Shown here piece after piece: positions 13,401 to 30,427 of a DNA stretch of 32,332 nt. The DNA comes from Akkermansia muciniphila (GTDB lineage Bacteria; Verrucomicrobiota; Verrucomicrobiia; Verrucomicrobiales; DEV007), in assembly GCA_945883495.1 (NCBI GenBank), contig CAMCXS010000066.1:1-32332 (forward strand), given 5' to 3'. The notes beneath the pieces were generated by a model. That model had not been told where the DNA came from and did no database searches. It saw nothing but the letters and a program-made list of their open reading frames with translations. Within the stretch, counting starts at the first letter, position 1, and the number at the start of each line of letters is the position of its first letter. The position numbers and the translations under genes are program-made.

Positions 13401-14340
13401 GTGTCGGCATCCCCAAAGACCGCGGAGGCGACGGGCAAACCTCCATCGCTTCCGGCTCCACCGCCCACAGCGAAGCCAGAGCCGGCTTAGGGCTCGACCA
13501 CAATGCCTGATCCCAGCCTCGACTGCGTTCGCCTCCCTGATGCCCCGAAACCTCCCAATCCACTTCCTTCCTCCGCACAAGCTCGCGCAGCTTCTCCGCG
13601 GCCGCTGGATCCAACCCCGCATCCTTCGCGGGCTTCGGCGACTCGGACGCCAACTCAAGCCCATTCACCACCAGCATCGCCAGCAGCCAATGGCCTCGCC
13701 GGTTGAGGCGCCGCCCATCTCGCGTCACATCGCCGTTCAGTTCAACCGCCAACGAAGCAAACGCCGAAGTCCCATCCAAACAGGCAACGTCGGGGGCTTC
13801 CTCCGCGATCGCGCGCATCTCTTGCGAATAGAGCGACAGCCGCGCGTTGAACGCAGCCTCATCGGGAAGCCCAGGCGCGCTCTGGACGTAGGGCAACGGT
13901 GGAATCAACTCGATGCGCGCTCTCTCCGCCGCACCTGGCCTTGCCTTCCCCCACGCCTGGCACCTCTCTCGCAACGCTTTCCCAAACGCGGCGACTCGCT
14001 CCGTGCCGTCAAAGCTCTCATTTGCTCCGGCGCAGACGAAAATCAGATCCGGTCCAAAGGCCGCCACCTCCGCATCCACACCTCCCGTCCCGATGACGGA
14101 CTCGGCTTCATCCACGCGGAATCCTTCTTGGGCGAAGCTACGGATCGTCAGATTGCGGTCCGGATACGCGAGATGGAGAGCGGTCTCCAGGTATCCAAAT
14201 CGCGCCATGCCGGACGCCAAGCCATCGCCGACGATTGCGATCCGTGCTCCCGCGTCCAAATGCAAAACGCCGCTCCGCAACTCCTCGGCATTCCCCCGTC
14301 CGGCCGATCCGAACCAAAGCGCGACCCACCACGAGAGCAT
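10372..14340 (-). CDS. Giant secreted PVC-type protein: SGNH-like, beta-propeller, HEAT, F5/8C-like and degenerate cupredoxin domains
   Basis: 1322 residues. The ATG at 14340 (GTGGAGC upstream) gives a signal peptide (MLSWWVALWFGSAGRGNA). Domains in order: SGNH-hydrolase-like (about 30-240; VGDGLASGMARFGYLE, CAGANES); PVC-type GSDH/TIGR02604-like propeller (about 340-640; VNLRFDHEGRAWIG, LRWGPDGGLWFTSDGG, AIEAGPDGALYLLD); HEAT repeats (about 690-980); a discoidin-like domain starting HNIAKERPARQSQSPNG; and a cupredoxin-like end (LTLSNVRKRDLAVGI, VAPAKPGAYFL). Relatives usually have a CxxCH haem domain between HEAT and cupredoxin; none occurs anywhere here. The copper-ligand positions (MPHN and Y-x-C-x-x-P-G-H in relatives) are replaced by KRDLA and FLRSMEAGA. 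The block-V His of the SGNH domain also appears changed (DGRRLN). A scaffold or binding role is inferred. Confidence 0.75.
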   Translation of the reverse strand: MLSWWVALWFGSAGRGNAEELRSGVLHLDAGARIAIVGDGLASGMARFGYLETALHLAYPDRNLTIRSFAQEGFRVDEAESVIGTGGVDAEVAAFGPDLIFVCAGANESFDGTERVAAFGKALRERCQAWGKARPGAAERARIELIPPLPYVQSAPGLPDEAAFNARLSLYSQEMRAIAEEAPDVACLDGTSAFASLAVELNGDVTRDGRRLNRRGHWLLAMLVVNGLELASESPKPAKDAGLDPAAAEKLRELVRRKEVDWEVSGHQGGERSRGWDQALWSSPKPALASLWAVEPEAMEVCPSPPRSLGMPTPSQFGMGARTNPTEAVAGIRCAGEIDAALWASEVGFELWNPVNLRFDHEGRAWIGCAPPGLPPCLIRVEDLDRDSLADRQVIALSGAIHPEGFMPGVDGVYVSTGEGLTWYGDADGDGAADRQEIVLGGVALRRGLRWGPDGGLWFTSDGGSGGARSRLIETPWGGVRDGGAGLFRWRPSTGKVERHVQSEAGREVFFDEWGEPLLVPGRYGSPIGQDRVGHWAGEPPSPIGDGVVGLGEPGPWVMLQGDRWPKAWRGGFVRAERGAEGNWQLWVYVPEWAGSIRRWRRQDAPVLTSTDPNFCPVAIEAGPDGALYLLDACGREKRLRAGSFGRIWRIAGRRWPPSWAAPGNGVDSVSLLQQLHQGGAEGAEGSRLALWHRPPGDVFTALGAYLPLVAENGPDRQRILLEALRLHQAFGAQNPELLSRLTQSPDPGGRYAAAHALAEWGAGLRDRAVLLQRLIEDENPRVRTAALLAARQMGAKEAGAIASLASHQRMDDDLRRVVDATIRQLGSGGTAPASLRAKAKATSTVDLIAGEMTPHAASVILERSGVENSVLKQAAVVLAGRAGVSIERWVVERLEDGGSPDELIANLLRLIALSEGWELYQCSTRLRARVDSAERPSFLKAAYAALAVGAAESGTLDALIDSVAKSGDFEMAALLDGCAHVMGHARLRSQISPIIRAELSRPDTPAIAGGVKVRLEAPGWDVLHFAELQVMSGGHNIAKERPARQSQSPNGKRWWATLAKNGVNGVVNWEDELPLKDLVPGAEAVRGVKVAASGGLPGPWWEVDLGSQQVVERLVYHPGEAITAPRPLRFALLNAEGEPIWTAVRYSRNDARIELDIAMSQERRQAAVRVAQALGEDFRRSLETVARHSALLQDRFNAFRALQRLGGEISGLRLRMFELQFGEEGFNKRALTVAARDAVELTLSNVRKRDLAVGIFEEAPGATVPVLPLGLVAAGEEVRFPFVAPAKPGAYFLRSMEAGAETAEFLQVRVEVIPPPPPPKK

Positions 14341-14372
14341 GATCGCTCCACGAGATACGGAACACCCCCACG

Positions 14373-15911
14373 GTGCGTCTTCCGGCAAGCTCTGCGCTGT
14401 GGCGAACACTCGGGCACTTCTACGCGAGGACCCGACTCAGAGCCAGAGGGGATTTTACGCAGGACATCGACAATCCAGCGCTTGCGCCCGAGCCTCGGTG
14501 GCGCCAGCCTTTGCCCACTCTCTTGGATCACTCTTCCGCCTCCAGCCTTCCCGCCCAAGACGGCCCCAGCACCGCCATCGTTGTGCTCGGCGGCGGCTTA
14601 GCGGGTCTCTACGCGGCATATCACCTCGCCTCTGGCGGCGTCCCTGTCATCGTCGTCGAGCGGGAGTTCGAGCCCGGTGGCCTCCTTCGCGGTCATCGCT
14701 TCCGCGATCATCGATACAGCATCGCCGAAGCTCCGTTGGTGACGACGGATGCGGACTTGGCCCAAGACTTGGCTCGTCTTCTTCCCCCTGATCTCGTTTC
14801 CACGGAACCGCCGCCGCCTCCCTCAATGATCCGCTGGAACGGCACCGATCAATCATTGCCGCTCCGACTGCGCGATTTGCTCCCGGGGCTGCCCCCCGCC
14901 CTTCGCTCCAACCTGATCCTCTCCCAACTCGGAGCAAGCTTCCGGCCGGGCCGCCAGCTCTCCCCTTCTCCTGGCGATGCCGCCGAAGTGCTCCGGCAGC
15001 GATACGGCGCCCCCCTTTTCCAAATGGTGATCCAGCCGGACCTGGAACATTACTGGAGCATGCCCCTCAAAGAGCTCGCACCCGCCGCTGCCGGGTTTCC
15101 AATGCGAGAAATCTTCTCCAGCCCGGCCGCCAAGGATGACCCGCCACCCTGGAGTATCCGTTGCGCACCGCACGTCGTAGCTGCGCGGCTGGCGGAGGCA
15201 ATCTGCGGTGCTGGAGGGCGAATTTTTTTCGGAGCCGAAGTGGAAGAGGTCTCGCTGGGAAGTGCATTCACCAGCCACGTCGTGATTCGCGATCGGCTTA
15301 CCCCGGCGGACGAACCACCAACACGGCTCCGCATCTCGGCCCAAGGGGTCCTCTCCACCGTTCCTCTGCGCTCCTTGGTCCGGTCCTTGGGCAACTGTGT
15401 TCCGGCTCAGGTTCACGCATCTTCCTACTATCTCAGCTATCTCCCCGTTCAGACCCACGCCTGCTTGGTGCACCCCGAACGGTGCCTTGATCACTTGACC
15501 CTCCATTTCCGAGACCGTCCGTTTTTACGGATCACCGAGCCACGGCATTTCTCCCTAGAGCCGCAGGATGCACCCAAGCCTTCGTCAAATTTGATTCTCA
15601 TCGAGGTCCCTGGACGAACGCCGCAACATTCAACCGACGTTTGGCAAAGTGTCTTGGAAGCTCTGGAATCCGAGAAAATCTGCGAGCGCTCTGACATCAT
15701 TGAGACCCAATCACTGCTCTCTTCTGGAGGACACCCCATTTTGCGCCGGGATGGCGCCTCGCCCCTTGAACGCATCCACGAGTGCCTCAACCGTTTTCCA
15801 GCACTCCGAATCGCTGGCGCATGCGGTCGATTCGCTTGCGCCTCTCCCGTGGAAGCCATGCTCTCAGCGCGAGCCGCCGCCTATGATCTCGCGACTAAGC
15901 GCGCCGGATAA
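14373..15911 (+). CDS. FAD-dependent amine oxidase / protoporphyrinogen-oxidase-like protein
   Basis: Up to 512 residues. The FAD-binding fingerprint IVVLGGGLAGLYAAYHLASGGVPVIVVERE begins near residue 69 and is followed by GGLLRGHRF, the usual second FAD contact; a C-terminal RIAGACGRFACASPVEAMLSARAAA completes the flavin-binding fold. The family (FAD-dependent, UDP-galactopyranose-mutase/PPOX-like) includes enzymes on sugar nucleotides, carotenoids and porphyrins; the substrate is unclear. The start is uncertain: GTG at 14373 leaves 65 untypical Arg/Pro-rich residues before the FAD motif, and TTG codons at 14511 or 14523 would give a more usual N-terminus. The 3' end overlaps the DUF2243 gene by 17 bases, tail to tail. 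Confidence 0.75.
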   Translation: MRLPASSALWRTLGHFYARTRLRARGDFTQDIDNPALAPEPRWRQPLPTLLDHSSASSLPAQDGPSTAIVVLGGGLAGLYAAYHLASGGVPVIVVEREFEPGGLLRGHRFRDHRYSIAEAPLVTTDADLAQDLARLLPPDLVSTEPPPPPSMIRWNGTDQSLPLRLRDLLPGLPPALRSNLILSQLGASFRPGRQLSPSPGDAAEVLRQRYGAPLFQMVIQPDLEHYWSMPLKELAPAAAGFPMREIFSSPAAKDDPPPWSIRCAPHVVAARLAEAICGAGGRIFFGAEVEEVSLGSAFTSHVVIRDRLTPADEPPTRLRISAQGVLSTVPLRSLVRSLGNCVPAQVHASSYYLSYLPVQTHACLVHPERCLDHLTLHFRDRPFLRITEPRHFSLEPQDAPKPSSNLILIEVPGRTPQHSTDVWQSVLEALESEKICERSDIIETQSLLSSGGHPILRRDGASPLERIHECLNRFPALRIAGACGRFACASPVEAMLSARAAAYDLATKRAG

Positions 15912-16626: not shown

Positions 16627-17508
16627 TCATCGTACGGCACATGACAACAGTTTCTCAATGACCTCCATCGGCACCTCCAGCACCGATCCGTGCCGCATTC
16701 CAGGTGGCATTGTCAGTTCCTCGCTCGCATCCTCGAAATCCACAAAATCGCAGGTGCGAATCGCACCATATGTTCCGCGGGTATATTCATCAAAGTAGAT
16801 CATCCAATGATCCCTCAAGCACAAGACCGATGGGCCCTCCACCCAATTCCGTGTGAGCGGACCCGCGACGTCCGTATAGGGTCCCTCCAGACACCGGCTC
16901 ACCGCATACCGCAGATGCTTCCTCAATGGCCGGCTCGTCTCATCTTTCACGACCAAGCGGAACAGAGCCCCGTCCCGGACAATGGTCGCGTCAATCACAT
17001 CGAACCCGCCATCATAAAATAAGCGCGCTGGACTGAACGTTCGCCAATCCCTCGTCCTCGCGCCATAAATACGATGGTCTAAGCCCTCGTCTCCGCGACC
17101 ATCCGTCTCGTGGAACCGCCCGGCCACCGTGCTCGACCAAATGATGAGAAATTCCTTGCGAGGCGGGTCGTAGATCACTTCGGGCGCCCAGCAATTGAGA
17201 ACCCTTGGCTCCTGGTCCATCACAGGGATGGCGTGTTGCCCCGACCAGGTAAGCAAGTCACTGGACCAAGCATGGCCGATCGTGCGGCCTCTCCATGAAG
17301 TCGTCCAGACCAGGTGAAAGACGCCGTCGGGACCACGCATCAGAAACGGATCTCGCATCAATTGACTCTCACCCACCCGCGGCGCTAGAAATGAAGCCCC
17401 ACCTCGCAGGATATCCCAGCAGTAGCCATCCCGGCTCCACGCCAAACGGAGTCCGTCCTCGCCATTATTGACAAAATAGGAGAACAAATACACAGAAGGG
17501 TGATCCAT
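16627..17508 (-). CDS. Cytoplasmic GH43-like glycosidase (five-bladed beta-propeller)
   Basis: 293 residues, no signal peptide. Repeated W/S-x-D-G-x-x-W blade motifs (WSRDGYCWDIL, WSSDLLTWSGQ, TRDWRTFSP) and the GH43 landmarks are present: RDPFLMRGPDG (candidate base Asp near residue 53), NCWAPEVIYDP (near 105-115), DVIDATIVRDG (pKa-modulating Asp near 170) and NWVEGPSVL (candidate acid Glu near 220). Family members remove arabinofuranose, xylose or galactofuranose units. The lack of a signal peptide suggests an intracellular substrate, perhaps a product of, or imported glycoside related to, the glf operon nearby. It is divergent from the galactokinase gene with a spacer of about 120 bases. 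Substrate prediction is inference. Confidence 0.75.
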   Translation of the reverse strand: MDHPSVYLFSYFVNNGEDGLRLAWSRDGYCWDILRGGASFLAPRVGESQLMRDPFLMRGPDGVFHLVWTTSWRGRTIGHAWSSDLLTWSGQHAIPVMDQEPRVLNCWAPEVIYDPPRKEFLIIWSSTVAGRFHETDGRGDEGLDHRIYGARTRDWRTFSPARLFYDGGFDVIDATIVRDGALFRLVVKDETSRPLRKHLRYAVSRCLEGPYTDVAGPLTRNWVEGPSVLCLRDHWMIYFDEYTRGTYGAIRTCDFVDFEDASEELTMPPGMRHGSVLEVPMEVIEKLLSCAVR

Positions 17509-17630
17509 GGGATTTCGAAGGCAGAGCCGGGTAAGACGCCGTATCTTCTATTTCTTTTCAGTGTAGGAATCGCTTACTAACGCAACCACGGCCGCCTTTG
17601 CTTTTTTTGTGTTTGCCGTTCAGAGCCTTA
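17509..17630. promoter_or_regulatory. Divergent promoter region between the GH43-like gene and the galactokinase gene
   Basis: About 120 bases separate the two 5' ends and must hold both promoters. A spaced inverted pair GTAAG (17530-17534) / CTTAC (17571-17575) flanks an AT-rich stretch (TATCTTCTATTTCTTTTC). I see no convincing -35/-10 pair or known operator. Confidence 0.35.
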
Positions 17631-18773
17631 GTGGTTTGTTGCTGCATCACCGAAAAATTCCAGCTCATCTATGGCCGCTCTCCCGCTTGGGCCGCTCGGG
17701 CACCGGGCAGAATTGAGTTCATCGGCAACCACACGGATTACAATGGCGGGCCTGTCATCGGCGCCGCCATCAATCGTTACGTGTCTGTCGCCATAGCGCC
17801 CCGAGCCGACGGAGTCTGGAACTTCTATAGCGACTTCACCGGTCATCTCGCCACACTGCCCGCTCACTGCATCTCCCGCCAGGAGGGGGAGCTCTCATGG
17901 CTCAACTATCCTCTCGGCGTCCTCGACGCCTTTCCGGCTTTTGGCTTCAAGAGACCGGAAGGCTTCGATCTTCTCACGATGTCCGACCTGCCGGCCGGCT
18001 CTGGACTCTCCAGCAGCGCCGCCCTCGAACTGGCAACAGCCCTGGCGTTCCTGTCATTGACCGGCCAGTCCATTGAGCGCGCCAGGCTCGTTCAATTGGC
18101 CCGGCATGCCGAGAATCAGTTCGTAGGCGTACCTTGCGGGATACTCGACCAGGGAGTCTCCGCCTTTGGAAAGGTAAATCACTTGGTCTGGATTGATTGC
18201 CTGCTACAGACATTCGCCACCGTCCCCCTGCCGGCGGATGTGCACTTCTGGATCTTCAACACCCACACCAAACACGCTTTGATCGATGGGATGTATGCGG
18301 AACGCCACCATGAGTGCATGCAAGCCGCACACGCCCTGGATGTCCCGTTGCTGGTCCACGCAACCCCCGCCCAGGTCGAAGCCGCCCGCCCCGGCCTCTC
18401 CGCCTCCCAATTCAAGCGAGCTCGCCACGTGGTCGAAGAAATCGCCCGTGTCGAGCAATGTATCGACGCTCTGCGGGGCGGTGATCTCGTGACCACCGGT
18501 CGTCTTCTCACGGCTTCTCATCGCAGCTCGCAGTGCCTCTTCGAAAACAGTACCACGGAACTCGACTTCCTGGTCGACCAGCTCACCCGCAATCCAAGCG
18601 TCTATGGAGCTCGTCTTTCCGGCGGCGGCTTCGGCGGCTCCGTCATGGCACTGACCCAGTCCAGCTTCAAAGAGAGCGATGCCCTGCGGATCCAACAATC
18701 TTATGAGGTGCAGTTTGACGTCGAGCCGGAAGGCTTTCATTTGCTCACCGCAAATGGCGCCGCTCCGATCTAA
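17631..18773 (+). CDS. galK: Galactokinase-type GHMP sugar kinase
   Basis: 380 residues from the GTG at 17631, which places 23 residues before APGR as in E. coli GalK; a TTG at 17598 is also in frame. GHMP landmarks: galactose-binding APGRIEFIGNHTDYNGG, phosphate loop LPAGSGLSSSAALE, catalytic-Asp region GVPCGILDQGVSAFG and the closing RLSGGGFGGSVM. It phosphorylates galactose, or a related sugar, at C1 in the Leloir pathway. The usual GEHTDYN is GNHTDYN here; that Glu contacts the sugar O6 in characterised GalK structures, so specificity could differ. No galT or galE is in the window. It probably supplies sugar-1-phosphate recovered by the neighbouring glycosidases. Confidence 0.85.
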   Translation: MVCCCITEKFQLIYGRSPAWAARAPGRIEFIGNHTDYNGGPVIGAAINRYVSVAIAPRADGVWNFYSDFTGHLATLPAHCISRQEGELSWLNYPLGVLDAFPAFGFKRPEGFDLLTMSDLPAGSGLSSSAALELATALAFLSLTGQSIERARLVQLARHAENQFVGVPCGILDQGVSAFGKVNHLVWIDCLLQTFATVPLPADVHFWIFNTHTKHALIDGMYAERHHECMQAAHALDVPLLVHATPAQVEAARPGLSASQFKRARHVVEEIARVEQCIDALRGGDLVTTGRLLTASHRSSQCLFENSTTELDFLVDQLTRNPSVYGARLSGGGFGGSVMALTQSSFKESDALRIQQSYEVQFDVEPEGFHLLTANGAAPI

Positions 18774-19266: not shown

Positions 19267-21501
19267 CTACCGCAAGCCGGGGCGGGGCTGTGAACTCCCA
19301 TCAGAACTCCCTCGTATCACCGCCTCCGAATAGTCACAGATCGCTCGCTCAAGCGAAGGCATCACCCGCCCGCGCTCCGATATCAGGGCACTGAAGATTG
19401 GCCGTTCCGCACACAAATTCAGTTCTTCACTCGAACACCCAACAATACCTGCTTCGCTCACTCCACAGCGACGAGCGGCCAACCTGGCGAACCCAGCCCA
19501 GCTGATTTCGCCTTCGTTCGCCAAGTGCCAAATGCCGGAAGCCCCATCAATCAATAAGTCCAGCGCCGCGCTCACCAAATGCGGCACATACGTCGGTGAG
19601 ACAATCACATCTTCAGGTACCCGGAGACTCTCCCCATTCCTTAACGTATTCAGAGAGTGCGTCACGAAATTCCAGTTGTCCGCCGGCCCAAAGAAGGCAC
19701 TAGTTCGCGCAATCAAGGCCTTAGGAGCCTCGGCGCTCACCCTGCGCTCCATCTCAACTTTACTCCGCCCATAAATATTGAGAGGCCCAGGTGCATCGCT
19801 CTCCACATAGGCAGACCATTGCTTACCATCGAAGACAAGATCTGATGAAAAACAAAGCACCGGTGCTCCAAAATGCTCACAAGCCGCCGCCAATCGCACA
19901 GCACCTTCCGTGTTCACCTCAAAGCACCCCTCTTGATCAATCTCCGCTTCATCAACTCTGACATAACCGGTCGCATTGATGACCGCCCACGGCCGGACAG
20001 CGCGCAATACGTCACGAACCGCACCTGGATTTCGCAGGTCCGCCTCTTGCCGGGAACAGGCGATATACGCAAGCCCTCTTATTTCACAAGCGGCCACGAA
20101 GGCTCGCCCCAGCGTTCCGGTGGCACCCAGGATCAACAACTGGGAGCACGGCACCGCCACCTTCCCCGGCAACCGATCGCCCCCCCGCGTAGCCAACGCG
20201 CGATGCGCCTCAAACAACCTTTCCGGCCTCCTCCACCACCCCGGCTGCTCCAGCGCAGGATGCCTCGGCATCTGTCCAGCGGCGACGGCTCTCAAGACGG
20301 AAGCAATCCCGGTCTCTCGGGGCTCCACGCCTCTGACATCAAACACTCCCGGCTCATAGTAACCCTCGTCCCGGGTGACCAAACTATTCCAATTGAACGC
20401 TCCCAAGAGCGACCAAGCGGTGACAGCGCGCACCTCGGCACCATTTTCGCGGGCGGCGACGGCTGCCGTCCACGAATCGGCAAACCAGCGCATCTGCTCC
20501 TCCCTTGTGCAGCCCAAATGAGACTCCGTGATGGCGACCGGAATCCGATACCGGCGCCACGCCTCCAGAAGGCGCTCCTCAAATCCCGCCACCGCCTCAG
20601 GTAACACCCGCACGGCTTCGGTGTCCACATAACGCATAGCGCCACCCTCACACGGAGCCACCGCTCCATAGAGGTCTACGTTTTCATCAAGAAAGCGATC
20701 ACTCGTAGGATAATGATTCACCCCTATCACATCAGGCGGGCATCCATTGTCCAAGAACCACCTCAACTCGTCTTCACTCACTCCAGATGTGCGCAAGTAA
20801 CGCCAAAGCGCATGATTTCTATCCACCAAGCCACATATCAGATCCCAGGCCAGCCAGCGCCGGTCATTCTGGTATTCAATTTCTTTACAAAGTCCATCAG
20901 TGCCATAAATTCGTCCCAGGTCATCTGTCTGGATCAGCCCGGCTGATGGATTGACCTCCCGAATGGCCCGCATTGCCAGAATCGTTCCCCGACACTCATT
21001 CAGGAGAATCCTCGCGAATGCTCGATGTGAACCTCCATGTGGATACCACAGGCCATACAGGCCGCAGAATCTTGCCGTTGTCAGCGGCTCGTTCACCGGC
21101 GTGTAGGAATCAATCCAGGGAAATCGCTCCGCAACGCGCCGCGCAAACCGCTCCAATCCAACAGCAAACCGCGGAGACTCAATCGAAGCATGGCGCGGGC
21201 CGCTCCCATGATGGACCAATCCCACAATGGCTCGAATCCCCTTCTCCCTTAGCTTACCCATTTGCTGGTCGACAAACTGCCAGTTGATTGCTTCCCCTTC
21301 TGCCGGTTCGAGCATCTCCCATATGACGGGGTATCGAATCGCAGAAATTCCTAAGCAAGCGAATCGATCAATGTCATCCGGACGATCCAAGTGACCACTC
21401 CACACCAATTGATTGTAGTAACGCCCCCCCACGCGATTCACCGTAGCCTCGATTCCGGCCCACGTCTCCATCGCATATAGACCGGTCGCCTGGGGAGTCA
21501 T
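19267..21501 (-). CDS. Fusion of GH1-like glycosidase and RmlD-like dTDP-4-dehydrorhamnose reductase
   Basis: 744 residues from the ATG at 21501, which overlaps the GH2 stop (ATGA). Residues 1-430 are a TIM-barrel GH1-like domain with both catalytic Glu positions kept: TPVNEP (Glu138) and VAITES (Glu326), plus AWSLLGAFNWNSL. Residues 452-730 are an extended SDR of the RmlD family: GATGTLGRAF (NAD(P) loop, 459-468), NATGYVRVDEAE, FSSDLVFDG, and the catalytic YGRSK (Tyr577, Lys581). RmlD reduces dTDP-4-keto-rhamnose; no rmlABC genes are here, so the keto-sugar is unknown. There is no signal peptide, so it is cytosolic. The fusion implies that one glycoside or nucleotide sugar passes between a hydrolase/transglycosidase and a reductase. 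Confidence 0.88.
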   Translation of the reverse strand: MTPQATGLYAMETWAGIEATVNRVGGRYYNQLVWSGHLDRPDDIDRFACLGISAIRYPVIWEMLEPAEGEAINWQFVDQQMGKLREKGIRAIVGLVHHGSGPRHASIESPRFAVGLERFARRVAERFPWIDSYTPVNEPLTTARFCGLYGLWYPHGGSHRAFARILLNECRGTILAMRAIREVNPSAGLIQTDDLGRIYGTDGLCKEIEYQNDRRWLAWDLICGLVDRNHALWRYLRTSGVSEDELRWFLDNGCPPDVIGVNHYPTSDRFLDENVDLYGAVAPCEGGAMRYVDTEAVRVLPEAVAGFEERLLEAWRRYRIPVAITESHLGCTREEQMRWFADSWTAAVAARENGAEVRAVTAWSLLGAFNWNSLVTRDEGYYEPGVFDVRGVEPRETGIASVLRAVAAGQMPRHPALEQPGWWRRPERLFEAHRALATRGGDRLPGKVAVPCSQLLILGATGTLGRAFVAACEIRGLAYIACSRQEADLRNPGAVRDVLRAVRPWAVINATGYVRVDEAEIDQEGCFEVNTEGAVRLAAACEHFGAPVLCFSSDLVFDGKQWSAYVESDAPGPLNIYGRSKVEMERRVSAEAPKALIARTSAFFGPADNWNFVTHSLNTLRNGESLRVPEDVIVSPTYVPHLVSAALDLLIDGASGIWHLANEGEISWAGFARLAARRCGVSEAGIVGCSSEELNLCAERPIFSALISERGRVMPSLERAICDYSEAVIRGSSDGSSQPRPGLR

Positions 21502-24323
21502 AGGCCACTCACGCTCTTTCGAATCACAACGGTTGGACAAATGGGATAACCCCCACAGTCATAATCATACACCGTCAAGCCACCACGAGGCTCACCGACG
21601 ATCTCTGTGCGGATCCAAAGCCTGCCGTCAGCAATTACCCGCCCTACCAGCACCTCGAGCAGCTCATTCTCAATTGCGGACATCAGCAGGTAGCCGTAAG
21701 CACCGTAGCCTCCCCGCAAGTGACTCAAACATCCGCGGCTGTCATGAGGATGATCCGGCAGCACGGTTCTGAGCACAGGCAATCCATTGACTGTGAGCTC
21801 AAGCAGGCTTGCAAACCGGTATGAGTCCGTTTGCGGCGTACCCTGCCGGCAGGATGAGGCCTCAAGCAGAATAGAAACCCTCTTCGCGTAGTGAATCCCG
21901 GCCACTGCCTCCCCACCAAACTCCCACTCAAAAAAACCGTGGCCATTTCCCTGGCAGCAACCGCTGAGCAACGCTTGATCTCGTTCACAACATCCGTCCG
22001 ACCAACTCGCATGGCACCATTCACTAGCTCTTCTGCGAAAAATCATCTCGCCCGGACGATCCTCCTGCTCGCAGAAGGGAGCATCGACGAAATGCTGGAT
22101 GAAATTACTTGCGATGACCTGCCCCTCTGAAGTCACGGCGGACACCGACAGAGTACACAACATCGTCTCATCTGGCATGGTCAGTTCCACTCGACGGGCC
22201 ACCTCGACCCGGTGATGTCGGAAAGGAATTCGATGGAATCCTTGAGACATCTGCGCATGCAGACGCCCTAAAGAATCCATCCCTGACAGACTCCAGTGCA
22301 TCGTAATCCCATCCCGCCGCCTCCGAGAAAAATGAGACGAGAGGACCTCAATCTCGATTGATTCTCCTGGCCTGACAAGAGATATGGGGGGCGCACTGAT
22401 CGGCAACACATCCCCCTGGTTGATCATGGATGGCTCATATCCAAATTCTTTCGGGGTCCGGTCATAATTCATGAATCCATTACACTCCCACTCGACATCC
22501 ATCAGCTGAGTGAATATGTACGCCGACAATTGCCCATGCCGTCGCAGCTCATTCGTGAGAAATTTAAATGACCAGCTTATATCCTGGTCAGGATCAAGCG
22601 CTCCAACCCCGCCATATTCACTATTAATCAGCGGAACATTTCGCTGCAAAAATCCTTCAATATAATTAAACGTCGATCCATGATAAGTTTTCGCAACAAC
22701 CTCCTCGATATGAGCCTTCGCCTTGTAGTAGTCTTTAATATAGAAATGCCAAGAGTTAATATCCGTATCTACGTGCCCCCATGCCACCAAATGCTCCCAC
22801 AGAACGACACTCATGTCTTCCACCAGCCGTGATGAGTCCATCTCTTTTGCGAGAGTCCACATCTTGTGAACCCATTGAAATGAGGATGAGTTTGCAAGCA
22901 ACACCCCCTCTTCCTGAAGCGTGCTCGGCCTCAGATCGGGCGTGATCACCTTCATCAATTCATTCTGCCCTCCAAAACCCCACGTCTCATTGAAGATGCA
23001 CCATGATATGATGGATGGGTGATTGTAGTCCCTCCGCATGGCCTCAACCATCATCTCTTGAAATCGGCGCCTTCCCGTCGGTGTATCTCCTCCCTCGCCG
23101 AAATTGGGAAAATCCTGCATCAACAGCATCCCCAGGGTATCGGCATAATAGAGAAGCAGCGGATCATCAATCTTCAGATGAATTCGCAAGAAGTCAAACC
23201 CCATGGAGATAGCATAGCTAATATCATTTCGTAACGTTCTCGCATCCATCGCGGTATAGACGCCATCGGGGTAGTATGACTGGTAGAGAGCTCCTCGTAA
23301 GTAGATCGGCTTGTTATTCAGACATAGCATCGCAGGTGCGTCGTCTGCGGGCGCCGTGCTAATTTTTCTCATCCCAAAGTAGCTTCGCACCGTATCCACC
23401 GCTTGACCAAGCGAGTCCCAGAGCCGAAAAGTCACACGATAGAGTTTTGGATCGCCAGGCTCCCAGAGCAGCACTGGATGGATTTCGGCGTCGCCAAGGG
23501 CGACCCCATCATGCAAGTCAATGGAGATTGAGAATGAGGGCGAGGCTGGTGGAGCGATATCCACCGTAAGTGAGAAGTCCGCCAGCGTCTCTTTGCACTC
23601 TACTTCGAATGCGACACGCCCATGATCAATGTCAGGATGAATTCGAAAACAGTCGATATGACTTAGAGACCTGGGCTCCAGGAAAACCGTCTGCCAGATT
23701 CCGCTCGTAGTGGTATACCAACCCCACTGCTTGCCTACAGGCTGTTCATGATTCTCCATTGGGTCTTCAACCCGAAGAACGAGAGTCCCATGACGAGAGC
23801 CAACAGCGTCCGATGGACCTAGAGCGCTACTTAGATCAAACTCAAAGGGCAGGTAGCCTCCCTCATGATGACCGAGATGGACCCCATTACACCAGCAGTC
23901 CGTGAAGAAGTCCGCAGCTCCGATGGTGAGAATAATCTGTTTGCTTCGCCAAACATCGCTGGGGGGAATACTCACCTTTCTGCGATACCACCCCACCTCA
24001 TAGCGCTGCTGGCTGCGGTGATTCTCCCGCGTCACCTCCAGCGGATTGCGGTAGCAGCGCACCGAAAAGTAGTTATCGTTATCCGCCATATTGCCATCCC
24101 CCCACGCGGCGAGCGATTCCCAGCAAAAAGGCACGATGATCTGACTCCCCCAGTCTGAGCTATCGGGCTCGTACCAACCCCGTCGCTCTCCCTCACCCCC
24201 TCGATCAAACCGAAACTGCCACGGTCCATTCAGATTCAACCAGTCTACGCCTTCTACCTTACCACGCTGGCAGTCAGGGCGGGGGTACTCGGGCCGTGGA
24301 CAGTAGCTTCCTATGGACATCAC
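21498..24323 (-). CDS. GH2 family glycosidase (beta-galactosidase/glucuronidase/galactofuranosidase-like), cytoplasmic
   Basis: 941 residues, no signal peptide. The N-terminal sugar-binding jelly roll (about 25-220: LNGPWQFRFDRGG, VPFCWES, GWYRRKVSIP, VHLGHHEGGYLPFEFDLS) is followed by the immunoglobulin-like domain (222-325) and the TIM barrel (330-640). The acid/base motif FNETWG has Glu446 and the nucleophile motif INSEYGG has Glu569, both intact. A C-terminal extension of about 300 residues ends in a beta-rich domain. Its place in an operon with UDP-galactopyranose mutase makes a galactofuranosidase or galactosidase role plausible, which is inference. It is separated by 3 bases from glf and overlaps the GH1-RmlD gene by 4. 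It is AT-richer than most of the window; by hand count 22621-22680 is 35% G+C. Confidence 0.88.
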   Translation of the reverse strand: MMSIGSYCPRPEYPRPDCQRGKVEGVDWLNLNGPWQFRFDRGGEGERRGWYEPDSSDWGSQIIVPFCWESLAAWGDGNMADNDNYFSVRCYRNPLEVTRENHRSQQRYEVGWYRRKVSIPPSDVWRSKQIILTIGAADFFTDCWCNGVHLGHHEGGYLPFEFDLSSALGPSDAVGSRHGTLVLRVEDPMENHEQPVGKQWGWYTTTSGIWQTVFLEPRSLSHIDCFRIHPDIDHGRVAFEVECKETLADFSLTVDIAPPASPSFSISIDLHDGVALGDAEIHPVLLWEPGDPKLYRVTFRLWDSLGQAVDTVRSYFGMRKISTAPADDAPAMLCLNNKPIYLRGALYQSYYPDGVYTAMDARTLRNDISYAISMGFDFLRIHLKIDDPLLLYYADTLGMLLMQDFPNFGEGGDTPTGRRRFQEMMVEAMRRDYNHPSIISWCIFNETWGFGGQNELMKVITPDLRPSTLQEEGVLLANSSSFQWVHKMWTLAKEMDSSRLVEDMSVVLWEHLVAWGHVDTDINSWHFYIKDYYKAKAHIEEVVAKTYHGSTFNYIEGFLQRNVPLINSEYGGVGALDPDQDISWSFKFLTNELRRHGQLSAYIFTQLMDVEWECNGFMNYDRTPKEFGYEPSMINQGDVLPISAPPISLVRPGESIEIEVLSSHFSRRRRDGITMHWSLSGMDSLGRLHAQMSQGFHRIPFRHHRVEVARRVELTMPDETMLCTLSVSAVTSEGQVIASNFIQHFVDAPFCEQEDRPGEMIFRRRASEWCHASWSDGCCERDQALLSGCCQGNGHGFFEWEFGGEAVAGIHYAKRVSILLEASSCRQGTPQTDSYRFASLLELTVNGLPVLRTVLPDHPHDSRGCLSHLRGGYGAYGYLLMSAIENELLEVLVGRVIADGRLWIRTEIVGEPRGGLTVYDYDCGGYPICPTVVIRKSVSGL

Positions 24324-24326
24324 GTT

Positions 24327-25445
24327 TCAAGCGGCGGCCAGCGCTTGGCTGCGTTTCACTCCCGAGAGCTTGGCGAATAAAGTCATTGCCTGAGCGACTA
24401 CCTGATCCATATTGTAATAGCGGTAAGTCCCCAACCGGCCGACAAAATAGACATCGGGCCGCTGTTCCGCAAGCCCCTGATACCGCCGGTAAAGCTCTGC
24501 ATTTACAGGCCTCGGAATTGGATAGTAAGGCTCACCTTCAGAGCGAGGATACTCAAATACAATACTAGTCGCGGCATGGTCTTGACCGGTCAAGTACTTA
24601 AACTCAGTCACTCGAGTGTATGCATATTCGTTGGGGTAATTAACCACCGGCGCTGACTGGTAGACCGCAGTGTGGTGGGTCTCATGCCGAAACTCAAGAC
24701 TCCGATATGGAAGCGCCCCGTAGCGATACTCGAAGAACTCGTCGATCGGACCAGAATAGATCAATGCACCGTAATTGATGTGCTTGCACACCTCCTGAAA
24801 GTCGGTGTTTAGCATCACCTTAATGTTTGGGTGATCAAGCATATTCTCAAACATGTGGGTGTATCCTCGCATTGGCATGGCTTGATAGCTGTCGGTGAAG
24901 TAGCGGTCATCCCGATTGTGCCGAACGGGCAAGCGAGCCGTCACCTGCGCATCTAGCTCGGAGGGATCGAGCCCCCATTGCTTCCTTGTGTATCCACGAA
25001 AGAACTTTTCATAGAGGTCACGGCCCATTCCACTCACAACCACATCCTCCGATGTAAGCAGCTTTTCTCTAGGTTCGGCTACGGATGCTAGAAAGGAACG
25101 CATCCCGGCCGGGTCCAGATCCAGGCCGTAGAGTTCATTGATGGTATCCAAATTAATTGGAACCGGAACCAAACGTCCATCCACCGATGCCTTTACCCGA
25201 TGTTGATACTGCCTCCACTCCGTGAACCGGGACAAGTAATCGAAGACATCGCTAGAGTTTGTGTGAAATATGTGAGGTCCATAACGGTGAATCAGAATGC
25301 CGGATTCATCGTAGCAGTCGTATGCATTGCCGCCAATATGACGCCTCTTGTCGATCAGCAGCACCTTGCGTCCCATCCCCCGACCCAGCCGCTCCGCGAG
25401 CACACTCCCCGCGAATCCCGCCCCTACGATCATGTAGTCAAACAT
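24327..25445 (-). CDS. glf: UDP-galactopyranose mutase
   Basis: 372 residues, the usual Glf length. It converts UDP-galactopyranose to UDP-galactofuranose with reduced FAD in the cytosol. Visible blocks: FAD fingerprint MIVGAGFAGSVLAERL (5-20), YGPHIFHTN, the flexible-loop motif GYTRKQWGLDPSEL with substrate-binding Trp/Arg, AMPMRGYTHMFENML, NYPNEYAYTRVTEFKYLTG, EYPRSEGEPYYP and the closing GRLGTYRYYNMDQVVAQA. The start ATG at 25445 gives the canonical MFDYMIVGAG; it overlaps the glycosyltransferase stop by 8 bases. Position 2 in a tightly packed operon shows that galactofuranose is central to this locus. Confidence 0.96.
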   Translation of the reverse strand: MFDYMIVGAGFAGSVLAERLGRGMGRKVLLIDKRRHIGGNAYDCYDESGILIHRYGPHIFHTNSSDVFDYLSRFTEWRQYQHRVKASVDGRLVPVPINLDTINELYGLDLDPAGMRSFLASVAEPREKLLTSEDVVVSGMGRDLYEKFFRGYTRKQWGLDPSELDAQVTARLPVRHNRDDRYFTDSYQAMPMRGYTHMFENMLDHPNIKVMLNTDFQEVCKHINYGALIYSGPIDEFFEYRYGALPYRSLEFRHETHHTAVYQSAPVVNYPNEYAYTRVTEFKYLTGQDHAATSIVFEYPRSEGEPYYPIPRPVNAELYRRYQGLAEQRPDVYFVGRLGTYRYYNMDQVVAQAMTLFAKLSGVKRSQALAAA

Positions 25446-26733
25446 AGCCACCCCCATTGACAGCATCTCGGCTCTGATCCTGAGAAACCCGGCGCTTTGA
25501 GAAAAGCACTTCCTCCAAATGGGCCTGCATCCGCTGAACGATCGAATCCCAGGTGCTTGCTTGGGCAAGCTGTAGACCCAGCTCAAGCCGGCATTTAGAT
25601 GGCGCCCGAACCTGACACCTACAGTGCTCGATGAACTCTTTCTGATCCCGACCAATGAGGACGACTTCTCCAAAGTTAAGCCGCACTTCGTCTAAATCTG
25701 TCGAAACTACCGGTTTGCCTGCAGCCATATACTCCAGCGCCTTGGTCGGATTAATAAATTCCGTCGCCTCGTTGAGAGCAAATGGCATGATACAAACATC
25801 CATTCCCGTCGTCAGCGAAGGCAGCTCGGCGTATGACCTCGGTCCCAACCAGTGCAGATTATCCATCCTTGGCAGCTGATAAGGCTCAATCTTTGCCGTA
25901 GGCCCTATCATCACGATGCTCCAAGCCGGATTCACCATCGCCAACGAGCTCAGCAGTTGGTAGTCAAGCCGTTCATCAATTACCCCGAAGTACCCCAGAA
26001 TTGGACCTCGGACCTCCACCAAACCGCTGTGTATAACAGACCGTCTACTCGACACTTGGCCAAAGTGCTTGCAGTCAACTCCGGTAGGATAAAAGTGCGT
26101 ATTGGGATTAAGGGGCAGCCGCTTGTTCCTCATCTTCTGTCCTCCACAGAAGATGAGGTCCGCCATGCTCACCAAGTCCCTTTCCCTCTGAATCAACTCA
26201 GCAGGCGCGCCAAGGAATTGGGAGAGTTCATCCATGCAGTCGTAGACAATCATGCACTCACCCAGCTGCCCTGCGTAAGCAGTTACCGCCATCGGATCGT
26301 TGAACCAGAGGATCGCCCCATCAAACTCTCCATCCGCCTCTTTGGCCAACCACTCCTTTAGCAATCGCCTGCGCAATCCGTCGATGAACACCCCATCACT
26401 CCACCGGCTGGCCGGTAGGTGAATTCGAGCGATCCGCAACGCCGGATTGCCTGGATCAGACACGACTTCTATATACCCCTCAGCTATTTCGCTGCGATGT
26501 GTCTCTACGAATAGTAGAGGATGCGTTCTGGCCAACCGCGAAAGGAACTGCTGGGGTCTTTGCCAAACCCATTTCCAGCTCAAGTGACATATCGCGATAA
26601 TGGGAGGGTTGTCACTGATCTCGTTCTCCGCCTCGCTGATCACTTTTCTATCGGCAACCCCAACCTCCGCTCGATGTAGTGCTACATTCTCTTCCGTGAC
26701 GTGATTCCGTAGATAGGAGGTAGGCATACTCAT
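25438..26733 (-). CDS. Glycosyltransferase of GT4-like fold, partner of glf
   Basis: About 431 residues from the ATG at 26733. The start is uncertain: ATGs at 26727, 26799 and a TTG at 26835 are in frame, none with a good ribosome binding site, and the conserved region begins only at IIAICHLSWKWVWQRPQQFLSRLA. The N-terminal Rossmann half continues with IVYDCMDELSQF; the C-terminal half has GPILGYFGVIDERLDYQLL, IVMIGP, LHWLGPRSYAELP, and FINPTKALEYMAAGKPVVSTDLDEV, the donor-binding E-x7-E-like segment of GT4. 'WQRPQQ' glycosyltransferases often sit beside glf. It is a candidate galactofuranosyl transferase acting in the cytosol or at the membrane surface. First gene of the four-gene operon. 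Confidence 0.85.
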   Translation of the reverse strand: MSMPTSYLRNHVTEENVALHRAEVGVADRKVISEAENEISDNPPIIAICHLSWKWVWQRPQQFLSRLARTHPLLFVETHRSEIAEGYIEVVSDPGNPALRIARIHLPASRWSDGVFIDGLRRRLLKEWLAKEADGEFDGAILWFNDPMAVTAYAGQLGECMIVYDCMDELSQFLGAPAELIQRERDLVSMADLIFCGGQKMRNKRLPLNPNTHFYPTGVDCKHFGQVSSRRSVIHSGLVEVRGPILGYFGVIDERLDYQLLSSLAMVNPAWSIVMIGPTAKIEPYQLPRMDNLHWLGPRSYAELPSLTTGMDVCIMPFALNEATEFINPTKALEYMAAGKPVVSTDLDEVRLNFGEVVLIGRDQKEFIEHCRCQVRAPSKCRLELGLQLAQASTWDSIVQRMQAHLEEVLFSKRRVSQDQSRDAVNGGGYV

Positions 26734-27398: not shown

Positions 27399-30056
27399 TC
27401 ATTTTTGGAAATCTACCCAGTCGAGGTTCATCAACCCGCCCTTGCCTGAATTGATGAAGACCAGGTAAACATCCCCCCGCTCCTGAGGCGCCTTGGCCAA
27501 GAGTGTCCTGAACAGTTGATACTTGTCCCAGCCCCCCGTATTAGGAACTTCCAGGGAGCCAAGGATCAACCCATCGGGAGCACCGGCTCGCACCTCAACG
27601 GTTCCACCGTTTCCTCCGGAGGAGGCGAAAATCTCCAAAGCTCCAGTCTCCGACAATGGAATCGACGCGAAGCGCGCCGTGTGGCCATGGGCGATCGAAC
27701 CGATGACTTTACCCTGCTTCTTGGGCCCGTTCAGCACATCCGCTTGCTCCGCTTGGATTCGACGCGTACGCAAAGCCACCTTGGCCTTTCCGGAGAGCGG
27801 GCCAGCGGGAGACCTGCCGAGGTCCGTAAACGTCGCCTCAACGAATCCAGTGGCCAGCCTTCCATCGTTGGGAGCGGTGACTTGCCCTTCCAGGCCTCTG
27901 GACACTGTTGGAGTAGCACCTCCATACGCCAAACCGTAGATCCACTTCACCATCATATGGACTTCGTCCGCGGTATGTTGCGCGTGAGGCAACATCGGAA
28001 TCGGCCCCCAAACATTCGCAGAGCCCTTTATGACCCGATCTACGGAAATCTCCATGGCTCCGGCTTGCTTATGATTCTTCTTGGCCACCTCGAGAAACGG
28101 AGGGCCAACGATTTTCTGGTCGATCGCGTGGCAGTTGAAGCAGTCCGACTGTTTCATCCGCGAGAGGCCAGGATCCACATCGCTAAGTTTCCCATCCGCA
28201 GACGCCCAAGCAGAACTGACCAACGTGCGAGTCGAGAAGTCAGCCTTCCGGCTAATGGAAGAGCCTTCCTCTGGATCGATCACCTCAACTTTATAAGCCA
28301 CAGGCTGACCAGGCGTGAAGAAGTCTCCATCCTGGGGAACGACAAACTTGACCAGAGGAATCGAATTCCCCACGGTCACGGCGGTCGTGGCTTTGCCAGT
28401 TGCTCCCTTCGCATCGCGAACCACCAACTCGAGCCTAAAATCTCCCGGCTCCGTCAACGTGATCGTGGTCTCCCGTTCCTTGGACAGCACCTTGTCGCCG
28501 ATGCGCCATTCATGGCTGATGGGATCACCTTCATGGTCCTTGGACCCAGCGGCGGATAGCGTGACCTCGAGCGGCTCCACCCCGGCGACAGGGGTCACCG
28601 CAGCGACGGCGACCGGGGCTAGGTTCCCGCGTTGATAACTCATGCGAACGAGCCTGGAGTCGGAGTTCACTCCCCAGGTTTCTCCATAATCCAGGAAATA
28701 GAGAGCACCGTCCTTGCCAAAAATAAGATCGATAGGCCGCTTGATCTGAAACCGCTCGCTTCCGTCATCATCCCCCTGCGCCACCCGGGCCGAGCCCGCG
28801 AAGGGAAGGATCTCCAACAGCTTGCCTTCGCTGTCCAGCCGCGCCCAGTGAATGAACGGACGTTGCCAATCATAGAAAAGCAAACAACCATCAAAGTACT
28901 CCGGAAGCCCACCGGTTGCCTCAAAATCCTCGCGGTAGTGAAATACCGGCCCACCGCAAGCGGTCCGCCCTCCCTTACCGAGAATTGGAAATTCAGCCGA
29001 CTCCGCAGCTGGATAGTAGACGAACGGAGCTTGAACTGGAGGGAGTTCAATCAATCCAGAATTGTTCGGGCTCTGATTCAGTGGTTTTGCCGCGTCGTAG
29101 ACGGAACCGGGAGCATTGGCGGCGAAATCATAATCAACGTAAACCTTGTTTCCGCGTGAATAGGGCCAGCCGTAGTTGCCCGCTCTGCGCAATTGATTGA
29201 TCGTATCGAATCCTCGAGGCCCGCGCTCTTGGTTTTCTCCTCCAGCGTCTGGGCCAACGTCACCGACGTAAAGAAAGCCCGTTTTTGCATCGATGTTGAA
29301 GCGCCAAGGATTGCGAAAGCCCATCGCAAAGATCTCCGGCCGGGTTTTTGCGGTTCCAGGAGGGAATAGATTGCCCTGAGGAATGGTATAACCTCCTTCG
29401 GGTGTTGGCTTGATGCGCAGGATTTTACCCCGTAGGTCGTTGGTGTTCGCGGAGGATTTCTGAGCATCCCATGCGCCCCGATCGGGCCGCTCATCGACCG
29501 GCGCATACCCTTGAGAGTCATTGAACGGGTTGGTGTTGTCGCCGGTCGAGGCGTAAAGGCAACCATCGGGACCAAATCGCAGAGTTCCGGCGTGGTGGCA
29601 GCACTGCTCACGTTGCTCTGGCCAGCTTAGCAAATCTTTGCGTGAGGCGAGATCGAGCAGATCGTCCCGCAACGTAAATCGGCTAATAATCTGACCGTCA
29701 AAGTCCATTGGTGAGTGGAAGAGATAAATCCACTGATTCTCGGCAAACTCCGGGTCTAGCGCCATGCCGAGCAGTCCGTTCTCCTGTGCAGTAGTCACCG
29801 GGAGACTTCCTATCTCCGAGACGAGCTTCGTAGCCGGGCTCCAGACCTTGATCTTGCCGGCGATCTCGATGAAAAAGATTCGCCCGTCTGGAGCCTCTTC
29901 CATCGTCATTGGCTGCGGCAGATTTTCAGCCAAGACCTCAAAGTAAAAGCGGTAATCCTGCGGCGAGCTCTGTTGTGCAGCGGCCATTTGAAGCAGGGGT
30001 AGTCCAAGCAGTCCCGCCCGAACGGCCGGGAATCGAAGAAGGAAATCGAGAAACAT
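27399..30056 (-). CDS. Secreted PQQ-type sugar dehydrogenase fused to PKD, cytochrome c and CBM-like domains
   Basis: 885 residues from the ATG at 30056, chosen because it begins a signal peptide (MFLDFLLRFPAVRAG, cleavage near AAAQQ); ATGs at 30086 and 30107 are in frame. The glucose/sorbosone dehydrogenase beta-propeller (about 30-475) contains PQPMTMEEAPDGRIFFIE, the PQQ-region motif HHAGTLRFGPDGCLYASTGDN, and MGFRNPWRFNID. A PKD domain (about 480-570) has GDFRLELVVRDAKGATG. Cytochrome c: CFNCH (Cys639, Cys642, His643) and the probable Met axial ligand in PIPMLPH. The last ~130 residues resemble CBM6-like modules (RRIQAEQAD, SGKGGLMNLDWVDF). Sugar oxidation at PQQ would pass electrons to the fused haem, in the periplasm or outside. 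Confidence 0.88.
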   Translation of the reverse strand: MFLDFLLRFPAVRAGLLGLPLLQMAAAQQSSPQDYRFYFEVLAENLPQPMTMEEAPDGRIFFIEIAGKIKVWSPATKLVSEIGSLPVTTAQENGLLGMALDPEFAENQWIYLFHSPMDFDGQIISRFTLRDDLLDLASRKDLLSWPEQREQCCHHAGTLRFGPDGCLYASTGDNTNPFNDSQGYAPVDERPDRGAWDAQKSSANTNDLRGKILRIKPTPEGGYTIPQGNLFPPGTAKTRPEIFAMGFRNPWRFNIDAKTGFLYVGDVGPDAGGENQERGPRGFDTINQLRRAGNYGWPYSRGNKVYVDYDFAANAPGSVYDAAKPLNQSPNNSGLIELPPVQAPFVYYPAAESAEFPILGKGGRTACGGPVFHYREDFEATGGLPEYFDGCLLFYDWQRPFIHWARLDSEGKLLEILPFAGSARVAQGDDDGSERFQIKRPIDLIFGKDGALYFLDYGETWGVNSDSRLVRMSYQRGNLAPVAVAAVTPVAGVEPLEVTLSAAGSKDHEGDPISHEWRIGDKVLSKERETTITLTEPGDFRLELVVRDAKGATGKATTAVTVGNSIPLVKFVVPQDGDFFTPGQPVAYKVEVIDPEEGSSISRKADFSTRTLVSSAWASADGKLSDVDPGLSRMKQSDCFNCHAIDQKIVGPPFLEVAKKNHKQAGAMEISVDRVIKGSANVWGPIPMLPHAQHTADEVHMMVKWIYGLAYGGATPTVSRGLEGQVTAPNDGRLATGFVEATFTDLGRSPAGPLSGKAKVALRTRRIQAEQADVLNGPKKQGKVIGSIAHGHTARFASIPLSETGALEIFASSGGNGGTVEVRAGAPDGLILGSLEVPNTGGWDKYQLFRTLLAKAPQERGDVYLVFINSGKGGLMNLDWVDFQK

Positions 30057-30427
30057 GCGCCGCCAGTGTAATTCGCCTTCGCGCATCGTCCAGCCCCACG
30101 CATCCATAACCCGGAAGGAGCGCTCAGCATCCCTCCTCACAAGCCTTGTCTTGGGCGGATACGGCGACCGACCGCCAGCGCTCGCTGCCATCGCTGCCCA
30201 TCGTTGACTCTCGCCGTTCGAGTCAGTCTGCTGGCGAGAGCAATCTCGCCGCAGCATCGGAACATTAAGGCCCCATTGGACGTGACAGCCACGTTCACGA
30301 TGCCTCGCGGCATCAGAGATCTCTCGCTAGCAGCCTTGGAGTCTAGCAATTTGCCGCGGCTTCATCTCTATTTTCCTTGTGCCTGGCAACAAGGTGGCAC
30401 AGCGTCACATCGAACTGCCCTCTCGCG
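30057..30427. promoter_or_regulatory. Divergent region between the PQQ dehydrogenase and protease genes
   Basis: About 370 bases hold both 5' ends. A small hairpin, CTCTCGCC (30208-30215) with GGCGAGAG (30233-30240), lies in it, and an imperfect one near 30376-30396 (CCTTGTGCC / GGCAACAAGG) is close to the protease start. No clear -35/-10 pair or operator. The frames on both strands here look like chance. Confidence 0.35.

Follow-up and report, generated by a model that had tools for sequence, protein, structure and literature searches.

The window described here is a stretch of 32,332 nucleotides from Akkermansia muciniphila (contig CAMCXS010000066.1, parent genome 6.46 Mb), and its subject is a run of four minus-strand genes at 19267-26733 which encode, in this order, a glycosyltransferase (GT), the UDP-galactopyranose mutase (UGM) Glf, a glycoside hydrolase of family 2 (GH2) and a fusion protein with a GH1-like and an RmlD-like half. 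On balance, it is slightly more likely than not that this operon is a variant of a cytosolic galactofuranosylation module that is widespread, has passed horizontally between lineages and carries its own remodelling glycosidases. The gene set, its conservation, the gene fusions, the protein folds and the catalytic residues are all supported by the present analysis. A preliminary description of this DNA had placed the four genes on a single strand with spacings of 8, 3 and 4 bases, and the stop and start positions bear this out. The GT gene ends at 25438, inside the glf gene which starts with an ATG at 25445 (8-base overlap), the glf stop at 24327 is followed after 3 bases by the GTG of the GH2 gene at 24323 (6 bases should translation begin at the adjacent ATG, 24320), and the GH2 stop at 21498 overlaps the ATG of the fusion gene at 21501 by 4 bases. 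A hydropathy scan, run with no signal-peptide predictor, detects a hydrophobic N-terminus in none of the four proteins, so that signal peptides are not evident, as had also been described for the two glycosidases. Likewise, both glycosidases have intact pairs of catalytic glutamates (E138 and E326 in the GH1-like domain, E445 and E568 in GH2). Secreted catabolic glycosidases are an unlikely explanation for the operon because no signal peptide is evident. A scan for promoters and terminators gave no more sites than shuffled sequence.

The preliminary description had named a neighbourhood confined to this genome as grounds for refutation, and a gene-neighbourhood analysis shows that the set recurs across phyla, where it includes fusions of GT with Glf and of GH1 with RmlD. 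This recurrence in other phyla rules out both a chance neighbourhood and an oddity of one genome. The tally comprises 77 loci, each centred on a GH1-like domain with an identity of 40% or more, 32 from Hymenobacteraceae and 45 from elsewhere; it leaves out L052 (27% identity) and L131 (the same locus as L009), and L047 is described only. Within 8 kb of the GH1-like gene, Glf is encoded in 54 of the 77 loci (counting in L076 a 40% identical copy below the TIGR00031 cut-off), GT in 57 and both in 52. The corresponding numbers are 29, 32 and 27 of 45 outside Hymenobacteraceae and 25, 25 and 25 of 32 inside. By rough arithmetic, fewer than 1% of loci would have glf this close by chance, given a genome of 5 Mb with one or two copies of the gene. 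GT and Glf form one polypeptide in 15 of the 77 loci, all of them outside Hymenobacteraceae, and Pfam confirms the GT and GLF domains in both of the fusions scanned. A fusion of RmlD to GH1 is present in 57 loci, 15 have RmlD as a separate neighbouring gene and five lack it (L011, L039, L050, L051 and L076). Of the 32 Hymenobacteraceae loci, 11 have a row of four individual genes in the order GT, glf, GH1 and RmlD.

The association between the GH1-like gene and glf extends to whole genomes. Among 200 Hymenobacteraceae genomes, 91 have both genes, 78 have glf alone, 31 have neither and none has GH1 without glf (Fisher p 7e-10, uncorrected for relatedness). That GH1 never occurs without glf (91 to 0), and glf often without GH1 (78), fits a role of GH1 downstream of galactofuranose synthesis. 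A glf gene above the curated cut-off is present in 11 of 13 carrier genomes; the copy in G037 lies just under it and the metagenome-assembled genome (MAG) of L003 has none.

The window Glf matches the Pfam GLF family with 264 bits and passes the curated model TIGR00031 (394.3 bits against a cut-off of 303.75). Its nearest solved structure is 3hdq, which we take to be the Deinococcus radiodurans UGM, with 594 bits against 310 for the runner-up. The GT is of the Glyco_trans_1_4 type and resembles TuaH weakly, with a score of 92.4 bits for model NF047676, below the cut-off of 550. All 13 of the module GTs scanned match this TuaH model, one of the 13 matches the galactofuranosyltransferase model PRK09814 (4e-4), and no model of the latter kind fits the GT well. 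No solved structural relative of the GT was found at the thresholds used.

GH2 provides the link to furanose chemistry. Its sugar-binding, sandwich and TIM-barrel domains score 57, 35.4 and 33 bits against Pfam cut-offs of 28, 23 and 21, and its best matches in the PDB are 7xyr, 7sf2, 9j6n and 9j6m (4e-65 to 8e-48, the next match being at 1.5e-23), of which 9j6n and 9j6m are both titled beta-D-galactofuranosidase 2. The same four structures lead for the module-side GH2 proteins of the cyanobacterium Gloeothece and of one alphaproteobacterial genome, the two that were searched. In the available part of PMC12243196, 7XYR and 9J6M belong to the furanoside-active group III of GH2, the group of 7sf2 is not found, and about 10% of the GH2_19 subfamily is secreted. 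Alignment of the window GH2 reveals the NE motif, the second Glu and the group III Thr, and the Thr is found at the inferred -1 position in 25 of 25 aligned GH2 open reading frames (ORFs), which correspond to 16 distinct genes including that of the window with its Thr604. The window protein thus appears closest to group III (GH2_18/GH2_19, which are not separated in this assignment), a group known for activity on furanosides including beta-D-galactofuranosides. It is like the Streptomyces JHA19 beta-D-galactofuranosidase (9J6M) and other group III enzymes in sequence, in its catalytic glutamates and in the Thr that replaces the -1 Trp, and like most GH2_19 proteins it has no evident signal peptide; unlike them it is about 300 residues longer and lies in a biosynthetic operon. 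Its predicted structure is poor (pLDDT 61.9, pTM 0.41) and has been set aside. The furanosidase-group relatives suggest that the place of GH2 in a galactofuranose pathway, which the preliminary description had proposed, is better founded than the sequence alone had indicated.

The last protein of the run has a confidently predicted structure (pLDDT 90.1, pTM 0.90) in which residues 8-413 superimpose on the Thermotoga GH1 enzyme 2j7h (Z 35.0, rmsd 2.8 Å over 379 residues) and residues 452-730 on the RmlD structure 1vl0 (Z 38.0, rmsd 1.5 Å over 276 residues). The names GH1-like and RmlD-like are used because the scores for Pfam GH1 and NCBIfam RmlD lie just under their cut-offs: Glyco_hydro_1 reaches 19.9 bits in the window against 22.6, which the relative in L050 passes at 31.1, and the RmlD equivalog TIGR01214 reaches 214.1 bits against 224.05, which L004 passes at 227.7 (RmlD_sub_bind scores 213 bits). 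E138 and E326 of the GH1-like domain align with the canonical GH1 motifs NEP and TE, and across 80 GH1-like ORFs every sequence with a letter at the position concerned has the acid/base Glu of NEP (79 of 79) and the nucleophile Glu (78 of 78). The domain thus has both the fold and the two catalytic glutamates in common with GH1 beta-glucosidases such as that of Thermotoga maritima (TmGH1), from which it differs in having 18% identity, a short-chain dehydrogenase/reductase (SDR) that is fused or adjoining, and divergent residues in the sugar site. R23, H97 and H98 are invariant in the GH1-like set even though they depart from canonical GH1, and the residue that replaces the canonical -1 Gln could not be placed.

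The RmlD-like half of the window protein resembles RmlD (dTDP-4-dehydrorhamnose reductase) in its fold and in both the GxxGxxG and YxxxK motifs. It differs in its score below the equivalog cut-off, in relatives that sometimes lack the catalytic residues (the Tyr is present in 52 and the Lys in 49 of the 60 sequences with letters there) and in that the genome has another rmlB-rmlD pair. This second pair scores above cut-off, which rules out the RmlD half as the sole rhamnose enzyme of the cell. The RmlD-like half is less constrained than the GH1-like half, and the nucleotide-sugar reductase named in the preliminary description is not a fixed part of the system, given its score below cut-off, the loss of Tyr and Lys from some relatives and its absence from others. 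Additional forms of these genes have been observed. A Phenylobacterium genome has three GH1-like copies (L010, L078 and L079), of which one adjoins a GT-Glf fusion, another lies close to glf and the third stands alone. The fusion gene of L047 (10103-12144), carried by a plasmid of Sphingomonas daechungensis, is broken and forms two ORFs next to GT and glf. A further GH1-like subfamily, of stand-alone proteins with 45-74% mutual identity and about 27% identity to the window domain occurs near the module in L011 (5354-6628), L130 (6869-8182) and L132 (12415-13797 and 16215-17540), and alone on a Microvirga plasmid (L052, 7356-9218).

Relatives of the fusion protein occur in 19 plasmid records, with cover of 80% or more and 41-52% identity, and in 10 loci of genome contigs. 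According to record titles and taxonomy lines the carriers belong to Cyanobacteriota, Deinococcota, Pseudomonadota, Bacteroidota, Gemmatimonadota and Verrucomicrobiota, and all of these six phyla but Gemmatimonadota have Glf encoded close to the GH1-like gene; the single Gemmatimonadota MAG has GT alone nearby. In broad genome samples, where counts include the centre genome and are lower bounds with few candidates per genome scored in the first pass, the GH1-like profile is rare, with at least 3 carriers among 337 genomes from the window's phylum, at least 3 among 289 from the class of a Phenylobacterium and at least 4 among 247 from the phylum of a Sabulibacter. G037, matched elsewhere at 1.9e-146, is absent among the genome-sample matches, either because it was not drawn or because it was missed. 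The profile is commoner in the order of an Erythrobacteraceae MAG (at least 13 of 246) and in the family of Rufibacter, taken as Hymenobacteraceae (at least 91 of 200). The patchiness of this spread suggests horizontal transfer of the module, and the lower G+C content of the operon (0.543, with flanks of 0.606 and 0.584) is a mild signal consistent with acquisition. Over 52 loci the tree distances of GH1, Glf and GT correlate with one another (r 0.75-0.77, p 0.001 with 999 permutations), and between lineages a clear correlation is seen only for GH1 and Glf (0.45); these correlations lend weak support to joint transfer.

The complete four-gene run can be followed within the window's own phylum. 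The assignment to Verrucomicrobiota agrees with the leucyl-tRNA synthetase of the parent genome (identified by Pfam), whose aligned pieces are 66-70% identical to the enzyme of a Verrucomicrobia genome and 43-61% identical to those of four Gemmatimonadota, Bacteroidota and alphaproteobacterial genomes. Close copies of the GH2 gene occur in 5 of 337 genomes, namely the window and four others with 62-64% identity, and all five sit in GT-glf-GH2-GH1 runs. In G065 and G227 the last gene of the run encodes a GH1-RmlD fusion. In G148 and G192 two stand-alone GH1-like genes, with 32% and 24% identity to the window domain, take the place of the fusion and no RmlD match was seen in these two runs; the GH1-like gene is therefore kept where the reductase is lost. 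More distant GH2 copies occur in 11 other genomes of the phylum sample, and none of the seven loci examined from these (L183-L189, three of them shorter than 10 kb) has a GT, Glf or GH1 gene near GH2.

The sugar specificity, the acceptor, the direction of the glycosidase reactions, the horizontal spread and the role of the RmlD-like domain are what we infer from these data. Glf would convert UDP-galactopyranose into UDP-galactofuranose, which the dedicated GT, fused to Glf in some lineages, would place on a lipid-linked or small acceptor in the cytosol. GH2, as a predicted group III furanosidase, may then remove galactofuranose or an arabinofuranose-like sugar, and the GH1-like enzyme, a retaining glycosidase by its fold and residues, might trim or rearrange the same glycoside before export or use, so that the two hydrolases jointly would determine the finished structure or return the product for reuse. 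The RmlD-like domain would be an optional component acting as a rare-sugar reductase or as a structural partner. The preliminary description had read the operon as a possible pathway that builds and trims a galactofuranoside. Of this reading the conserved gene set and the furanose link of GH2 stand. The trimming role of the GH1-like domain is still a guess, as its sequence has no tie to galactofuranose and would fit trimming, transfer and turnover alike.

Several observations weigh against a dedicated galactofuranosylation module. Neither GT nor Glf is encoded within 8 kb in 18 of the 77 loci and GT occurs without a nearby Glf in five more. Glf is encoded elsewhere in the genome for all 10 of these 18 that were checked (L009, L010 and L012 and, from Hymenobacteraceae, L087, L153, L163, L164, L165, L167 and L168); the other eight are L040, L041, L043, L044, L045, L139, L141 and L142 (five plasmid records and three genomes). 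GH2 is a minority partner found in 6 of the 77 loci and in the window, and its top match 7XYR is uncharacterised and has no NE motif according to the available part of PMC12243196. Between lineages, the distance correlations of GT with GH1 (0.16) and with Glf (0.10) are low. If the GT retains the alpha anomer of its donor, the product would be an alpha-galactofuranoside and therefore not a substrate for a beta-galactofuranosidase. Finally, canonical GH1 enzymes bind the -1 sugar through a His-Trp pair and a Glu before the last Trp, and these residues are not matched in the GH1-like domain. The pair becomes His-His, with H98 in place of the Trp that follows the conserved His, and the Glu is replaced by Asp, Gly or Asn or kept as Glu across the set, with Asn in the window. 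Because these sugar-site positions differ from canonical GH1, the sugar of the GH1-like domain may not be galactose.

A rather unlikely alternative is that the GH1-like enzyme is a transglycosidase which moves a glycosyl unit between glycosides and so completes a galactofuranose glycolipid, forming its final bond in a manner analogous to plant SFR2. The available part of PMC11525325 describes SFR2 as a galactolipid:galactolipid galactosyltransferase, and a title in its reference list names SFR2 a family I glycosyl hydrolase. The retention of both glutamates in every sequence with a letter at these positions, the invariance of the non-canonical R23, H97 and H98, the presence of synthesis genes in the same operon and the lack of an evident signal peptide would all suit such an activity, though sequence does not separate transglycosylation from hydrolysis. 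The likeness to SFR2 is a proposed analogy of function: both are GH1 relatives in a setting of galactose-glycoside biosynthesis, but SFR2 is a plant enzyme that acts on galactolipids and is membrane-bound (PMC11525325, available part), whereas the hydropathy scan reveals no evident membrane segment in the operon proteins.

A further, unlikely alternative is that the operon consists of ordinary surface-polysaccharide genes, with Glf and GT as suppliers of galactofuranose to an exopolysaccharide, capsule or O-antigen and with glycosidases that would edit wrong lipid-linked intermediates. Genes for Glf and GTs are typical of such clusters, and galactofuranose clusters with glf and a galactofuranosyltransferase are known for bacterial galactans, O-antigens and the mycobacterial galactan. 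The module resembles them in having a bacterial-type UGM and a dedicated transferase, adjoining or fused, and two loci have a fitting context: capsule, ABC transporter and other GT genes lie close to the module in Caballeronia (L038), and a further GT and a GH16 gene in L049. The module differs in its recurrent GH1-like (and in some cases GH2) glycosidases and its RmlD-like SDR, and also in its surroundings. Of 770 neighbour clusters, 24 occur in two or more lineages and 22 of these had a scanned member; among the 22, no flippase, polymerase, priming transferase, ABC exporter or chain of GTs was found (single-lineage neighbours were not annotated).

A salvage pathway, in which GH2 and GH1 would degrade imported furanoside oligosaccharides, GalK and GalT would return the galactose, and Glf and GT would be neighbours by chance or shared regulation, is more doubtful still. 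It could account for the galactokinase gene galK, which adjoins the operon in the window and also accompanies the module in L082 and, together with galT and a group III-like GH2, in L033. It could likewise account for MFS transporter genes near L007, L033 and L036. However, the window galK lies on the opposite strand, the scanned shared clusters include one MFS-type transporter in two loci only, and the link of GH1 with GT and Glf holds across phyla, in most cases with neither GH2 nor galK present. In the module favoured here, galK may possibly feed galactose back. Equally doubtful is a mobile, stress-linked system that assembles a galactofuranose glycolipid or glycoside with a protective role. 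Here the GH1-like enzyme would be a cytosolic transglycosidase that works like SFR2, the RmlD-like domain would not be a reductase but a carrier or regulator, and GH2 would be the enzyme that sets turnover.

The features of the operon and its convergent neighbour are collected in the table.

Table. Features of the galactofuranose-related operon and of adjoining galK in the window
Feature	Position	Strand	Basis
Glycosyltransferase of the Glyco_trans_1_4 type, weak TuaH likeness, 431 aa; opens the run	25438..26733	-	Profile matches; conserved partner
glf, UDP-galactopyranose mutase, 372 aa	24327..25445	-	Profile matches; closest structure 3hdq
GH2, group III-like putative furanosidase, 940-941 aa, extra C-terminal region of ~300 aa	21498..24323	-	Pfam, PDB matches, alignment
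GH2 acid/base Glu445 codon (FNETWG)	22986..22988	-	Alignment
GH2 nucleophile Glu568 codon (NSEYGG), putative role	22617..22619	-	Alignment
GH2 Thr604 codon, group III Thr in place of -1 Trp, position inferred from alignment	22509..22511	-	Alignment
GH1-like/RmlD-like fusion protein, 744 aa, start ATG 21501	19267..21501	-	Profile and structure matches
GH1-fold domain, residues 8-413; Glu138 codon 21088-21090, Glu326 codon 20524-20526	20263..21480	-	Predicted structure, alignment
RmlD-like SDR domain, residues 452-730; GxxGxxG, Tyr577, Lys581	19312..20148	-	Predicted structure, alignment
galK, galactokinase, convergent neighbour outside the run	17598..18773	+	Profile matches

The other neighbours of the module are mixed. 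The 22 scanned shared clusters comprise histidine kinase, SDR, DUF892, DUF4142, DUF6766, catalase, transposase parts, one MFS, two antisense artefacts and others, and no fixed partner beyond the module was found among them. Proteins with a histidine-kinase ATPase (L137, 13672-15153, and relatives) are the commonest cross-lineage neighbours, occurring in 16 loci from five lineage groups, a frequency as expected for so large a family. DUF892 (ferritin-like), DUF4142 and DUF6766 genes are often found in stress islands. By BLAST, such a gene lies nearby in at least 9 of the 45 loci outside Hymenobacteraceae and in none of the 32 inside, counts that come with no background rate, and Pfam adds DUF4142 in L046. 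The loci concerned are L075 (4018-5382 and 19216-19836), L003, L033, L037, L039, L041, L043, L046, L049 and L050. In the window itself, the gene directly upstream of the operon (27399-30257, minus strand) encodes a large protein that combines glucose/sorbosone dehydrogenase, PKD and CBM6 domains, an ORF near galK (16627-17508, minus strand) weakly matches a BT_3657-like arabinosidase N-terminal domain, and a protein of 1345 residues with GDSL lipase, DUF7133 and HEAT domains is encoded further away (10372-14409, minus strand).

The families to which these proteins belong are known, and their conserved combination seems undescribed in the open-licence literature searched, as full-text searches of open-licence papers found none that describes the gene set. 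To our knowledge, few roles have been assigned to galactofuranose in environmental bacteria, and UGM of the D. radiodurans type is known mainly from its structure. A conserved set that links UGM and its transferase, through operon structure and gene fusion, to glycosidases with no evident signal peptide provides a testable context for the UGM, for the transferase and for the non-secreted group III GH2 enzymes, and the GT-Glf and GH1-RmlD fusions offer single-gene handles for reconstitution. The few GH1 proteins used in synthesis include plant SFR2 and the acyl-glucose-dependent glucosyltransferases, and if the GH1-like enzyme is a transferase, it would join them as a bacterial biosynthetic case.

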